This document shows positions 9,951-46,213 of a stretch of DNA of 64,000 nucleotides, piece after piece (position 1 is the stretch's first letter; every line of letters starts with the position of its first letter). Source of the stretch: Pseudomonas putida (lineage in GTDB: Bacteria > Pseudomonadota > Gammaproteobacteria > Pseudomonadales > Pseudomonadaceae); contig NZ_CP016634.1 of assembly GCF_002741075.1 (NCBI RefSeq), positions 5,260,501 to 5,324,500 on the forward strand, read 5' to 3'. The position numbers and the translations under genes were made by a program. The notes below the pieces were generated by a model that was not told the origin of the DNA, made no database searches, and saw nothing but the letters and a program-made list of their open reading frames with translations.

Positions 9951-11873
9951 ATGAGCATTTTTAGCCACTTCCAACAACGTTTCGAGTCAACCCGCCAGGA
10001 AGAATTCTCGCTGCAGGAGTACCTCGAGCTGTGCAAAGAGGATCGCAGTGCCTATGCATCGGCGGCCGAACGGCTGTTGCTGGCCATCGGCGAACCAGAG
10101 CTGGTCGATACCTCAACGAACTCCAGGCTGTCGCGAATCTTCTCCAACAAGGTGATCCGCCGCTATCCGGCCTTTGCCGACTTCCACGGCATGGAAGAAT
10201 GCATCGACCAGATCGTCTCCTACTTCCGCCATGCCGCACAGGGCCTGGAGGAGAAGAAACAGATCCTGTACCTGCTGGGCCCGGTGGGGGGTGGTAAATC
10301 GTCCCTGGCCGAGAAACTCAAGCAGCTCATGGAGAAGGTCCCCTTCTACGCCATCAAAGGCTCTCCGGTGTTCGAATCGCCCCTGGGGCTGTTCAACGCC
10401 AGCGAGGACGGTGCCATTCTCGAAGAAGAATTCGGCATCCCGCGCCGCTACCTGAACACCATCATGTCCCCCTGGGCTACCAAGCGCCTGCAGGAATTCG
10501 GCGGCGATATCTCCAAGTTCCGGGTGGTCAAGCTCTACCCCTCCATCCTCAACCAGATCGCCATCGCCAAGACCGAACCCGGCGATGAGAACAACCAGGA
10601 CATCTCTGCGCTGGTCGGCAAGGTGGATATCCGCAAGCTCGAGGAATTCCCGCAGAACGACGCCGATGCCTACAGCTACTCGGGCGCGCTGTGCCGGGCG
10701 AACCAGGGCCTGATGGAGTTCGTCGAGATGTTCAAGGCGCCGATCAAGGTCCTGCACCCACTGCTCACCGCCACCCAGGAAGGCAACTACAACAGCACCG
10801 AAGGCCTCGGCGCGATCCCCTACTCCGGGATCCTGCTGGCCCACTCCAACGAATCGGAGTGGCACACCTTCCGCAACAACAAGAACAACGAGGCGTTCAT
10901 CGACCGGATCTACATCGTCAAGGTGCCGTACTGCCTGCGCGTCAGCGACGAAGTGAAGATCTACGACAAGCTGCTGATCAACAGCTCGCTGGCCAAGGCG
11001 CACTGCGCACCGGACACCCTGAAGATGCTTGCTCAGTTCACCGTGCTGTCGCGCTTGAAGGAGCCTGAGAACTCCAACATCTATTCGAAGATGCGTGTCT
11101 ACGACGGCGAGAATCTCAAGGATACCGATCCGAAGGCCAAGTCGATCCAGGAATATCGCGACGCGGCCGGTGTCGATGAAGGCATGAACGGCCTGTCGAC
11201 CCGGTTCGCCTTCAAGATCCTCTCCAAGGTGTTCAACTTCGATCCGCATGAAATCGCCGCCAACCCGGTGCACCTGCTCTATGTGCTCGAACAGCAAATC
11301 GAACAGGAGCAGTTCCCGGCCGAAGTACGCGAGCGCTACCTGCGCTATCTCAAGGAATACCTGGCGCCGCGCTACATCGAGTTCATCGGCAAGGAAATCC
11401 AGACCGCCTATCTCGAGTCCTACAGCGAGTACGGCCAGAACATTTTCGACCGCTATGTGCTGTACGCCGACTTCTGGATTCAGGACCAGGAATACCGCGA
11501 TCCGGAAACCGGCGAGATCCTCAACCGCATCGCTCTCAACGAAGAGCTGGAGAAGATCGAGAAGCCGGCGGGCATCAGCAACCCGAAAGACTTCCGCAAC
11601 GAGATCGTCAACTTCGTGCTACGGGCCCGAGCCAACAACAACGGCAAGAATCCGAGCTGGCTGAGCTACGAGAAACTGCGCGTGGTGATCGAGAAGAAAA
11701 TGTTCTCCAACACCGAAGACCTGCTGCCGGTCATCAGCTTCAACGCCAAGGCCAGCAAGGAGGATCAACAGAAACACAACGACTTCGTCACCCGGATGGT
11801 GGAACGTGGCTACACCGACAAACAGGTTCGCCTGCTGTCGGAATGGTATCTGCGGGTCAGGAAATCGCAATAA
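9951..11873 (+). CDS. prkA: PrkA family serine protein kinase (YeaG)
   Basis: A 640-residue PrkA protein: an N-terminal AAA+ ATPase domain with a variant Walker A (LLGPVGGGKSSLAEKL, about residues 105-120) and a C-terminal kinase-like domain. E. coli YeaG and Bacillus PrkA are linked to stress, nitrogen starvation and sporulation; the substrates are poorly defined. The ATG at 9951 (MSIFSHFQQRFE) sits behind GAGGTGAC; in-frame codons upstream lie in the leader and lack family similarity. It heads prkA-yeaH-spoVR, a trio kept together in many proteobacteria. Confidence 0.93.
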   Translation: MSIFSHFQQRFESTRQEEFSLQEYLELCKEDRSAYASAAERLLLAIGEPELVDTSTNSRLSRIFSNKVIRRYPAFADFHGMEECIDQIVSYFRHAAQGLEEKKQILYLLGPVGGGKSSLAEKLKQLMEKVPFYAIKGSPVFESPLGLFNASEDGAILEEEFGIPRRYLNTIMSPWATKRLQEFGGDISKFRVVKLYPSILNQIAIAKTEPGDENNQDISALVGKVDIRKLEEFPQNDADAYSYSGALCRANQGLMEFVEMFKAPIKVLHPLLTATQEGNYNSTEGLGAIPYSGILLAHSNESEWHTFRNNKNNEAFIDRIYIVKVPYCLRVSDEVKIYDKLLINSSLAKAHCAPDTLKMLAQFTVLSRLKEPENSNIYSKMRVYDGENLKDTDPKAKSIQEYRDAAGVDEGMNGLSTRFAFKILSKVFNFDPHEIAANPVHLLYVLEQQIEQEQFPAEVRERYLRYLKEYLAPRYIEFIGKEIQTAYLESYSEYGQNIFDRYVLYADFWIQDQEYRDPETGEILNRIALNEELEKIEKPAGISNPKDFRNEIVNFVLRARANNNGKNPSWLSYEKLRVVIEKKMFSNTEDLLPVISFNAKASKEDQQKHNDFVTRMVERGYTDKQVRLLSEWYLRVRKSQ

Positions 11874-12013: not shown

Positions 12014-13285
12014 ATGAGCTACGTAATCGACCGACGCCTGAACGGCAAGAACAAGAGCACGGTCAACCGCCAACGCTTCTTGCGGCGGTACCGTGAGCAC
12101 ATCAAGAAAGCCGTCGAAGAGGCCGTGAGCCGCCGCTCCATCATGGACATGGAGCATGGCGAGCAGATCAGCATTCCGGGTCGTGATATCGACGAACCCG
12201 TGCTGCACCATGGTCGTGGCGGCAAACAGACCATCATCCATCCCGGCAACAAAGAATTCACCGCAGGCGAGCACATCCCCCGGCCACAGGGCGGCGGAGG
12301 GGGTGGCGGACGCGGCAAGGCCGGCAACTCCGGGGAGGGCATGGATGATTTCGTGTTCCAGATCACCCAGGAAGAGTTCCTCGAATTCATGTTCGAGGAC
12401 TTGGAGCTGCCCAACCTGGTCAAACGTCACCTGACCGGCGCCGACACCTTCAAGACCGTGCGCGCCGGCATCGCCAACGAGGGCAACCCCTCGCGCATCA
12501 ACATCGTGCGCACCCTGCGCTCGGCACACGCCAGGCGCATCGCCCTGACCGGCAGCAGCCGCGCCCTGCTGCGCGAAGCCCAGGCAGAACTCGCCCGCCT
12601 GACAGTCGAGGAGCCGGACAACTTCACGGATATCCAGGCGACGGAAGCCGAGATCGAACGCCTGAAGGCGCGCATCAACCGCCTGCCCTTCCTCGACACC
12701 TTCGACCTTAAATACAACCTGCTGGTCAAACAGCCCAACCCCAGCTCCAAGGCCGTGATGTTCTGCCTGATGGACGTCTCCGGCTCCATGACCCAGGCCA
12801 CCAAGGACATCGCCAAGCGGTTCTTCATCCTCCTTTACCTCTTCCTCAAGCGGAACTACGACCGCATCGAGGTGGTGTTCATTCGCCACCACACCAGCGC
12901 GCGCGAAGTGGACGAGGAAGAGTTCTTCTATTCCCGTGAAACCGGCGGCACCATCGTCTCCAGCGCACTCAAGCTGATGCAGGAGATCATGGCCGAACGC
13001 TACCCGGCCAGCGATTGGAACATCTACGCCGCCCAAGCCTCGGACGGCGACAACTGGAACGACGACTCACCGATCTGCCGCGAGATCCTCTCCAAGCAGA
13101 TCATGCCGCATGTGCAGTACTACACTTACGTCGAGATCACCCCTCGCGAGCATCAGGCGCTGTGGTACGAATACGAGCGCATCGGCGAGGCATTCCCAGA
13201 TACCTTTGCCCAGCAGCAGTTGGTATCGGCCGGAGACATCTACCCGGTCTTCCGTGAACTCTTCCAGCGCAGGTTAGCCACATGA
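12014..13285 (+). CDS. yeaH: UPF0229 protein YeaH (VWA-like domain)
   Basis: A 423-residue UPF0229 protein. The C-terminal half contains [15 protein letters not shown] (about residues 252-266), the DxSxS metal-ion-dependent adhesion site of a von Willebrand factor A-like domain. The N-terminus is basic, and a glycine tract ([12 protein letters not shown], about 96-107) links it to the rest. Molecular function is unknown; E. coli yeaH is co-expressed with the yeaG kinase. The start at 12014 ([16 protein letters not shown]) follows GGAGGGACC. The stop overlaps the spoVR ATG (ATGA). Confidence 0.92.
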
Positions 13286-14850
13286 CCGCCAGAGAGCAGA
13301 GACGCCAACCCATTTCCACCGGGTCCGAGTGGACGTTCGAGCTGATCCAGGCCTATGACCGCGAAATCAGCCGCTTGGCCGAGCGTTACGCCCTGGACAC
13401 CTACCCCAACCAGATCGAGGTGATCACCGCCGAGCAGATGATGGATGCCTATGCTTCCGTCGGCATGCCGCTGGGCTATCACCATTGGTCCTACGGCAAG
13501 CAGTTCCTCAGTACGGAGAAGTCATACAGCCGCGGCCAGATGGGCCTGGCCTACGAGATCGTGATCAACTCCGACCCGTGCATCGCCTATCTGATGGAAG
13601 AGAACACCATGTGCATGCAGGCACTGGTGATCGCCCACGCCTGCTATGGCCACAACAGCTTCTTCAAGGGCAACTACCTGTTCCGCACCTGGACAGACGC
13701 CAGCTCGATCATTGACTACCTGGTGTTCGCCAAGCAGTACATCGCTCAGTGCGAGGAGCGCCATGGCATCGATGCCGTCGAAGACCTCATCGACTCCTGC
13801 CATGCTCTCATGAACTATGGCGTCGACCGCTACAAACGCCCCTACCCTATCTCCGCCGAGGAAGAACGCCGCCGGCAGAAGGAACGCGAGGAGCACTTGC
13901 AACGCCAGATCAACGACCTGTGGCGAACCATTCCCAAGGGGTCGGAAAAAGGCAACGAGCGCGATGATGTGCGCTTCCCCGCCGAACCGCAGGAAAACAT
14001 CCTCTATTTCATCGAAAAACACGCGCCCCTGCTTGAGCCCTGGCAGCGCGAAGTGGTGCGCATCGTGCGCAAGATCGCCCAGTACTTTTATCCACAGCGC
14101 CAGACCCAGGTCATGAACGAAGGGTGGGCGACGTTCTGGCACTACACCCTGATGAACGACCTGTACGATGAAGGCCTGGTGACCGAAGGCTTCATGATGG
14201 AGTTCTTGCAGTCGCACACCAGCGTGGTGTTCCAGCCGGGCTTCGACAGCCCTTACTACAGCGGCATCAACCCCTATGCCCTGGGCTTTGCCATGTACAC
14301 GGACATCCGTCGCATGTGCGAAAACCCTACGGAAGAAGATCGACGCTGGTTCCCTGACATTGCCGGTAGCGACTGGCTTTCCACCCTCAAGTTCGCCATG
14401 AGCAGCTTCAAGGATGAAAGCTTCATCCTGCAGTACCTCTCGCCCAAGGTGATGCGTGACCTCAAGCTGTTCAGCATCCTCGATGACGACCAACGCGACG
14501 ACCTGCTGGTACCGGCGATCCACGACGAAGCAGGCTACCGGATCATCCGTGAACAACTGGCCGCCCAGTACAACCTGGGCAATCGCGAACCCAACGTGCA
14601 GATCTGGAGCATCGACCGCCGTGGCGATCGCTCCCTGACCCTGCGCCACCAACAACACAATCGCAAACCGCTGGGCGACTCTACCGAAGAGGTGCTCAAG
14701 CACCTGCATCGCCTGTGGGGCTTCGATATCCACCTGGAAACCGTGCAAGGCGACCAGGTGATGAAAACCCATCACATGCCGCCCCGAGGCGACCAGAGCG
14801 AAGCAGGCGAATACGGTCGCATGGACCTGGCGGTGGTCCACCACCTCTGA
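13282..14850 (+). CDS. spoVR: SpoVR family protein (YcgB-like)
   Basis: A 522-residue SpoVR/YcgB protein, named for a Bacillus protein needed for spore cortex formation; in non-sporulating Pseudomonas its activity is undefined. Conserved stretches include [20 protein letters not shown] at the start, YHHWSYGK near 70, [14 protein letters not shown] near 120 and [21 protein letters not shown] near 278, the last rich in potential metal ligands. Translationally coupled to yeaH by ATGA. The kinase-VWA-SpoVR trio probably acts in one stress pathway; that is inference from conserved order. Confidence 0.92.
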
Positions 14851-14855
14851 GAGCC

Positions 14856-14901
14856 ACCTCCGTGACTGCCGACAGGTTATCCTGTCGGCAGTCACGGAGG
14901 T
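14856..14901 (+). promoter_or_regulatory. Perfect 21-bp hairpin covering the cca ribosome-binding site
   Basis: Bases 14856-14876 are the exact reverse complement of 14881-14901, with a TTAT loop at 14877-14880. The right arm ends in CACGGAGGT, which supplies the Shine-Dalgarno sequence six bases before the cca ATG at 14907. There is no T-run, so it is not a standard terminator. If it forms in the mRNA it would hide the ribosome-binding site. Confidence 0.75.
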
Positions 14902-14906
14902 TCTAC

Positions 14907-16031
14907 ATGCAGATCTACAAAGTCGGTGGCGCGGTGCGCGACCGCCTGCTCGGGCGCCCGGTCAGCGATATCGACTGGCTGGTGGTCGGCGCCACGGTCG
15001 AACAGATGCAGGCCCTGGGCTATCGCCCGGTCGGGGCCGATTTCCCAGTATTCATCCATCCACGCACGGGCGAGGAATACGCCTTGGCCCGTACCGAACG
15101 CAAGAGCGGGCGGGGCTATGGCGGTTTCACCTTCCATGCCAGCCCTGAGGTGACGCTCGAAGAGGACTTGATCCGTCGGGACCTCACCATCAATGCCATG
15201 GCCGAAGATGAACAGGGCAACCTGTACGACCCCTACCATGGCAAGACTGACTTGGATCTTCGCCTATTGCGTCACGTTTCCCCGGCATTCGCCGAAGATC
15301 CCCTGCGCGTGCTGCGCGTGGCCCGCTTCGCCGCCCGCTATGCGCCGCTGGGCTTCCATGTCGCCGACGAAACGCTCGAACTGATGCGCCAGATCAGCGC
15401 ATCGGGCGAGTTACAGGCGCTGACCGCTGAGCGCAGCTGGAAGGAAATCGAACGGGCGCTGATGGAAGATCAACCGCAAGTGTTCATCCAGGTGCTACGT
15501 GAATGCGGCGCCCTGAGGATACTGATGCCGGAGGTGGACGCGCTGCTGGACCAACGGCAAAGTCGCACCCTGCAAGCGCTGGAGCAAGCAGCCCGCGCGC
15601 AGCAGCCGCTCAATGTGCGCTGGGCCTGCCTGCTGCATGAGCTTGTTGACCTGAACCAGGCCAAGGCACTCAACCAGCGTTTCAAGGCGCCCCGGGAATG
15701 TCAGGAACTGGCCCTGCTGGTCGTGGAATGCCAGGCCCTGTGCCATGGCGCCCTGCAACTGAACGCTGCCCACTTGCTGGAATTGCTGCAGAAGTTCGAC
15801 GTCTATCGGCGCCCCCAGCGTTTGGAGGATTTCATTGCCGCCTGCCAGGCGCTAGCGCTCAGCCGAGGCGAACAGGTCTATCCACAGGCCGACTACCTGC
15901 GCGGCGCGGCGGCGGTGGCCAAGGCGGTTGATGTGAAGGCGTTGGTGGAAAAAGGCCTGACCGGGCAGGCACTGGGCGAGGCACTGAAGGAAGCGCGGCT
16001 GGCGGCACTCGGGGCCTACATGCAACGCTGA
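14907..16031 (+). CDS. cca: CCA-adding tRNA nucleotidyltransferase
   Basis: A class II nucleotidyltransferase (374 residues) that builds or repairs the 3' CCA of tRNAs. Motifs: [22 protein letters not shown] (residues 7-28; metal aspartates in DIDW), [10 protein letters not shown] near 91 and [16 protein letters not shown] near 130. The ATG at 14907 ([12 protein letters not shown]) is the family start; an in-frame ATG at 14715 lies inside spoVR and would read through the hairpin. Shorter than E. coli Cca (412 residues); where that enzyme has an HD phosphohydrolase motif, this protein reads LLHELVD, so the HD activity is probably absent. Confidence 0.94.
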
Positions 16032-46179: not shown

Positions 46180-46213
46180 AAAAACCGCCTGCCGGTGAAG
46201 GCAGGCGGTTTTT
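46180..46213 (-). terminator. Strong terminator after the 46230 acyl-CoA dehydrogenase gene
   Basis: A perfect 14-bp stem (46180-46193 with 46200-46213) with a six-base loop, ending in A/T runs on both sides so it can act in either direction. It lies 17 bases after the stop codon and so isolates this gene from the GGDEF gene. Confidence 0.92.

Follow-up and report, generated by a model that had tools for sequence, protein, structure and literature searches.

Why does the gene for the CCA-adding enzyme of Pseudomonas putida carry its ribosome-binding site inside one arm of a perfect palindrome? The window (the whole 64-kb stretch of DNA that was analysed) contains spoVR at 13282..14850 on the + strand (NCBIfam PRK11767, 937.8 bits; Pfam SpoVR). 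It is the last gene of prkA-yeaH-spoVR, in which prkA for the PrkA kinase lies at 9951-11873 and yeaH, with a DUF444 match, at 12014-13285; the starts of these two genes were assigned in this analysis. The next gene on the + strand is cca (14907..16031), which encodes a CCA-adding enzyme of 374 amino acids (NCBIfam PRK10885, 518.6 bits against a cut-off of 451). Between the two genes, also on the + strand, a gap of 5 nt after the end of spoVR at 14850 is followed by the 5′ arm ACCTCCGTGACTGCCGACAGG (14856..14876) with an anti-Shine-Dalgarno CCTCC at 14857-14861, the loop TTAT (14877..14880), and the 3′ arm (14881..14901) with the Shine-Dalgarno (SD) sequence GGAGG at 14896-14900. A spacer beyond the stem (14902..14906) leads from the SD to the ATG at 14907. 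The cca genes of the window clade are about 28-44 codons shorter than those of the fluorescens type (about 1083-1134 versus 1200-1218 nt, as judged from match spans).

The initial annotation had described two exactly complementary 21-base arms around a TTAT loop with the GGAGG of cca in the 3′ arm, and this was confirmed at 21/21 pairs. Only two of the 18 inverted repeats listed in the window, with arms at most 60 nt apart, are perfect, namely the 21-nt cca hairpin and one with arms of 14 nt. The latter, a perfect 14-bp inverted repeat at 46180-46213 with A- and T-runs (AAAAACCGCCTGCC/GGCAGGCGGTTTTT), looks by eye like an ordinary bidirectional terminator. The predicted stability of the 91-nt hairpin region is -55.2 kcal/mol, against -25.4 +/- 3.3 for 200 dinucleotide shuffles (z = -8.9), none of which was as low; the stem was scored at -47.1 kcal/mol over 78 nt. 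An RNA thermometer, which the initial annotation had called less likely, was rejected because the stem is too stable. A known Rfam element was likewise rejected; nothing reached the gathering cut-off between 13000 and 17000, where the best score was 24.9 bits against a required 60 (the miRNA family MIR2629).

Is the palindrome a copy of a repeat family? Within the window, a 20-base pattern for the arm, allowing up to 3 mismatches, matched the two arms only. In the 5.85-Mb genome, a DNA search found the hairpin locus in single copy, the second match being the palindrome itself on the opposite strand. A covariance model run on both strands of the genome returned the cca locus alone, with 150 of 4417 first-look candidates scored. 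A 14-mer core with up to 2 mismatches gave 83 genomic matches versus 64 for the reversed-pattern control, and the pattern CCTCC...TATnnT...GGAGG gave 7 versus 5. These 7 comprise cca, five identical copies resembling an insertion-sequence end, and one other match; no second gene with the cca-type architecture was found by this pattern search in the genome. The five copies lie near 1180045, 1689182, 1898701, 3887755 and 3926207 (L321, L322, L324, L325 and L326) and share an identical 43-bp stretch (CCTCC...TATCCT...GGAGG) with one common and one differing flank, by eye an insertion-sequence end. At L321, an ORF of 163 amino acids that looks like a transposase OrfA lies 16 nt away on the opposite strand. 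A REP or mobile repeat was rejected on the genomic copy number of one.

I then compared the junction across the genus. The region was matched in 149/149 genomes, including that of the window itself; 143 junctions, 135 of them distinct, were analysed computationally and the remaining 6 were read by eye. A junction was called long when the predicted fold pairs at least 4 of the 5 SD bases with sequence upstream of a hexamer TATnCT, and mini when the SD is paired with bases lying between TATnCT and the SD. Among the 143 junctions, 119 are long, 12 are mini, and 12 are neither, several of the last being long stems that end short of the SD. The mini class mostly pairs TATCCTCCG...CGGAGG or TATCCTCTG...GGAGG. 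Judging from the predicted folds, the mini hairpin is a second way of hiding the SD.

Compensatory changes were counted in two clade-wise alignments, those of the window clade and of a second clade. In the 23 sequences of the window clade, 8 pairs changed on both sides (4.5 in shuffles; 2/500 as high), with 33 two-sided cells (13.8 in shuffles; 0/500 as high). The 50 sequences of the second clade have 6 two-sided pairs (4.0 in shuffles; 34/500 as high) and 46 two-sided cells (18.4 in shuffles; 0/500 as high). These letter shuffles ignore relatedness, and related sequences may exceed them even without structure. In both clades, the number of paired cells and the covariation score are far above those of versions in which the partner was slid by 1-3 columns. 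Coding DNA from the 80 best of 541 confirmed matches, named loci that are all near relatives, was also used for a quick tree. Assignment of the loci to a register went by pairing score, a choice that favours pairing; nine fitted neither register and were left out. Among window-type loci (39), a change on both sides that preserves the pair occurs on 14 branches, as against 0-2 in six slid controls; one-sided changes preserve the pair 32 times and break it 42 times, and 4 two-sided changes break it. For the second type (32 loci), the tree gives 20 one-sided changes that preserve a pair, 3 breaks, and no change on both sides.

The pairing is not uniform along the stem. Within the 23 window-clade sequences, alignment pair 6-46 is unpaired in 11, pair 4-48 in 8, and pair 3-49 in 14. 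Since these pairs of the SD region are so often open, the upper stem is kept better than full anti-SD pairing. RNAalifold predicted only 4 pairs, none from the stem, in a mixed alignment of 65 sequences, because the MAFFT alignment did not bring the 5′ arms of the various clades into the same register. The arm sequences change together, and selection therefore keeps the structure rather than a fixed DNA motif. These comparisons make a solid case that the hairpin is selected as an RNA structure and not as a repeat. The initial annotation had offered selection or a mobile/REP-type origin as explanations and had suggested comparing the spoVR-cca junction within Pseudomonas and looking for further genomic copies of the arms. 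The comparison yielded compensatory changes in two clades, in favour of selection; the search for copies led to no unrelated loci but to the cca locus alone, so that the REP part was not upheld.

What does the stem do to the SD? The cost of opening the SD was computed for RNA reading through from spoVR and for a predicted transcript of cca itself, which would start inside the 3′ arm. Over the 135 distinct junctions, the cost averages 10.0 kcal/mol for the read-through RNA; it is 2.2 for the predicted transcript of cca itself and 4.5 when the upstream sequence is shuffled (20 shuffles per junction). The read-through value is higher than the own-transcript value in 131/135 junctions and reaches at least 6 kcal/mol in 110/135, while only 77/135 exceed all 20 of their own shuffles. 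In the window, the SD costs 9.3 kcal/mol to open in the read-through RNA. The predicted start region, placed by spacing alone at 14889..14892 on the + strand, would give a leader of 15-18 nt devoid of the 5′ arm, in which opening the SD would cost 4.0 kcal/mol with a start at 14889, 14890, or 14891 and 1.7 with one at 14892. Among 34 genes of the window, the highest SD opening was 7.88, below the 9.28 of cca, in a comparison for which crude start calling apparently misplaced cca and which is not counted as proof.

The hexamer is the most constant part of the junction. TAT(C/T/G)CT is present in 149/149 junctions of the genus (143 analysed and 6 by eye), including those without a long hairpin; for comparison, an exact GGAGG is found in 119/135 distinct junctions. 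The variants among the 143 are TATCCT (115), TATTCT (17), and TATGCT (11), and all 143 have the T, A, and final T that are fixed in a sigma-70 -10 element. In these junctions, the hexamer lies at -26 to -34 from the ATG, typically about 28 nt, and in one of the six genomes read by eye it is about 41 nt from the matched ATG. TATnCT is also present in 80/80 of the named loci used for the tree, which cover the closest relatives only. In the window, TATCCT (14878..14883, + strand) lies in the loop and the start of the 3′ arm. The hexamer is exposed in the loop of the long class, and its end is partly in the stem of the mini class; since it is kept there despite the stem context, it behaves as a DNA element. 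TATnCT resembles the -10 box of a promoter belonging to cca, and its position suggests that the transcript of cca starts inside the 3′ arm. Base counts by column over the 143 junctions revealed no conserved -35 box or TGn extended -10, and a promoter scan of 14400-15300 found none.

Does the hexamer extend beyond the genus? A search of the family found cca in 119/119 genomes, and 50 loci from 19 genera were read. In 14/19 genera, one locus or more has TATnCT within 48 nt, though its presence in genera g13 and g18 may be due to chance. TATnCT is replaced by TATCCC in 10/10 loci of genus g9; for genera g3, g5, g7, and g19, the 1-3 loci that were read contain neither hexamer. The cca leaders of genus g9 (L269, L270, L273, L274, L276, L278, L280, L284, L285, and L286) finish with GAAGCTATCCCC(C)AGAACAGGAGACAGCTTCATG; their SD, judged by eye, lies within a short stem of a different kind.

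The neighbourhood of spoVR is linked to the trait. A strong long hairpin was found in 99/121 distinct junctions with spoVR at most 110 nt away, in contrast to 0/14 of those in which spoVR lies farther away or is absent from the fetched stretch, a contrast of counts that ignore relatedness. In three of these 14, a mini hairpin conceals the SD (opening at least 6 kcal/mol). The prkA gene of Rhizobium etli heads a co-transcribed set of three, the other two encoding a von Willebrand-domain protein and a SpoVR-like protein; this operon is strongly induced at growth arrest, and yeaG of Escherichia coli is within the RpoS regulon (PMC3188799). By analogy, the prkA-yeaH-spoVR genes of Pseudomonas may behave like those stress-type operons. 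Do their transcripts reach cca? The gene PA0584 of P. aeruginosa is, I assume, cca. PA0588-PA0584 is treated as one transcribed unit in a review (PMC4001013). On that assumption prkA RNA would reach cca in P. aeruginosa, and read-through from spoVR into cca is likely. Such a unit can also reflect ordinary operon membership of cca.

The reading that I lean towards, as a somewhat probable one, is that the hairpin insulates cca from spoVR read-through while a promoter of its own lies in the loop. Read-through RNA from spoVR would carry both arms, the 5′ arm would pair with the SD of cca, and little Cca would be made from such RNA; in species with a T-run after the stem, the stem would probably terminate the RNA as well. 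Transcription of cca itself would depend on the putative -10 box in and beside the loop and start inside the 3′ arm, giving a short mRNA that lacks the 5′ arm and has a more accessible SD. A housekeeping gene would be kept apart in this way from an operon that is of a stress type in other bacteria. If read-through is abundant enough in P. putida, the hairpin would be expected to affect the level of Cca. Weighing against this reading are the lack of a conserved -35 box or extended -10, the pair-breaking changes on the tree, the imperfect pairing of the SD region in relatives within the window clade, the 58 of 135 junctions that fail to exceed all of their shuffles, the cost of about 4 kcal/mol that the window SD would keep if transcription began at 14889-14891, and the possibility that cca is an ordinary operon member in P. 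aeruginosa. The initial annotation had proposed that the hairpin restrains Cca translation. This would hold for spoVR-derived RNA, in which the SD is predicted to be occluded, but probably not as a general restraint, as TATnCT points to a separate start in the 3′ arm. Among the observations that the initial annotation had listed as speaking against its own proposal is transcription that begins at the stem or beyond it; the start predicted here would be such a case, and the hairpin would then act on read-through RNA only. Neither the likely promoter in the loop nor the T-run of related species had been visible to the initial annotation.

Several other explanations have to be weighed against insulation. 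The hairpin might be an intrinsic terminator or a 3′-end stabiliser of the prkA-yeaH-spoVR mRNA, its overlap with the SD of cca being mere compaction. A run of 5-6 T is indeed found within 8 nt after GGAGG, directly past the stem, in 89/101 long-class junctions outside the window clade, where it forms the SD-ATG spacer, and in most of these genomes the stem is plausibly an intrinsic terminator as well. Some stutzeri-like junctions (L127 of G118, L108, and L109) instead carry a separate terminator-like hairpin with a T-rich end, only a few bases ahead of TATCCT; any cca promoter beyond that hairpin would be confined to the last 30-40 nt or so before the gene. In the window clade, however, a run of 5 T is found in 0/23 sequences and the stem is kept. 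In the window, GGAGG is followed by TTCTACAT (14901-14908, + strand), 8 nt with 4 T but no T-run, and no terminator was found by a scan of 14400-15300. Because compensatory changes persist in this clade without the T-run, termination alone does not explain the stem there. SD occlusion also recurs in the form of the mini hairpins. As a full explanation, termination or stabilisation is unlikely.

Another explanation is translational coupling, in which ribosomes ending at the spoVR stop would open the base of the stem and tie the synthesis of Cca to that of SpoVR, much as the initial annotation had suggested when it named ribosomes arriving from spoVR as a means of relief. The 5-nt gap makes this possible in the window, the distance from the spoVR stop to the anti-SD is at most 13 nt in 99/118 measured long-class junctions (81 at 9-13 nt and 18 at 7 nt or less), and the single transcribed unit of P. 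aeruginosa would suit it. On the other hand, 14 of the 15 long-class genomes whose anti-SD lies 15-57 nt past the spoVR stop keep an opening cost of at least 8 kcal/mol, which argues that coupling to spoVR translation is not the conserved feature, and the invariant TATnCT is left unexplained. Four further long-class junctions with gaps above 100 nt have weak stems (2.4-4.9). Coupling was rejected as the conserved function and is a rather improbable rival that retains a place in the window clade. It is improbable, too, that the loop or stem serves as a site for a regulator or nuclease (an RNA-binding protein, RNase III, or RNase E) with TATnCT as an RNA motif. The exposed hexamer of the long class would fit such a role, and RNase III could plausibly cleave a long perfect stem, but the mini class changes the RNA context of the hexamer while its sequence stays constant. 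The RNase E consensus is RN/WUU, and base counts around the hexamer show that it is not kept, so an RNase E consensus in the loop was rejected. A REP-like or mobile palindrome, or a recent functionless product of template switching, is hardly credible. A single event can produce a perfect 21-bp palindrome, and the stems of many relatives are imperfect; against this stand the single genomic copy and the presence, in 119/143 junctions, of hairpins that share the position but differ in sequence, with compensatory changes.

Insulation may also be part of a wider scheme, which I put forward tentatively as something short of probable. One palindrome would combine a terminator, a translational block, and a promoter, with the -10 box in the loop, the SD in the 3′ arm, and the T-run as the SD-ATG spacer. 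Across Pseudomonas, it would shift between a transcriptional insulator with the T-run and a purely translational one in the window clade, and to the mini form, whose -10 box would supply part of the anti-SD (TATCCTCC). What would this mean for the cell? Bacterial genes are closely packed, and transcription leaks between neighbouring operons. If the reading of the junction as an insulator is true, a conserved chromosomal element of 46 bases would keep such leakage from altering the level of an important tRNA enzyme, leaving a housekeeping function independent of a stress operon. Its history can be traced over about 150 genomes and would show how terminators and translational blocks may replace one another, and RNA reads across such genes need not imply protein.

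How does the junction compare with known systems? In the open-access literature, judged by titles and the openings of abstracts, no description of the spoVR-cca junction was found. In IS10 and IS50, transcripts from outside fold and hide the start site of the transposase. Passages of PMC4265352 and PMC8450116 contain no description of this read-through protection. In IS200, one stem-loop terminates incoming transcripts and another hides the ribosome-binding site (PMC3196728, citing earlier work), whereas a single stem appears to do both jobs at cca. Unlike these elements, the cca hairpin is not mobile, is single-copy, and sits at the same junction across Pseudomonas. With RNA thermometers, riboswitches, and ribosomal-protein operators it shares an SD held in a stem, but this stem is very stable, and neither a ligand-binding motif nor an Rfam match at the cut-off was recognised. 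With intrinsic terminators it shares the GC-rich stem and, in most long-class relatives outside the window clade, the T-run, but here the SD and the likely -10 box of the downstream gene both lie within the hairpin, and the window copy has no T-run. The closest likeness is to gene e and I-TevI of phage T4, in which a helix conceals the SD of the longer early transcripts and late promoters sited at the 5′ strand of this helix yield an mRNA that lacks that strand and is translated (PMC3014915). At cca, the SD is likewise paired in the predicted fold of the long transcript, and the -10-like TATnCT stands where a promoter could give a transcript without the 5′ arm. The differences are that cca is a chromosomal housekeeping gene, that its putative promoter has a -10-like box in the loop and no clear -35, and that many species have a T-run. 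If confirmed, the junction would extend a design of phages and transposons to a bacterial housekeeping gene.
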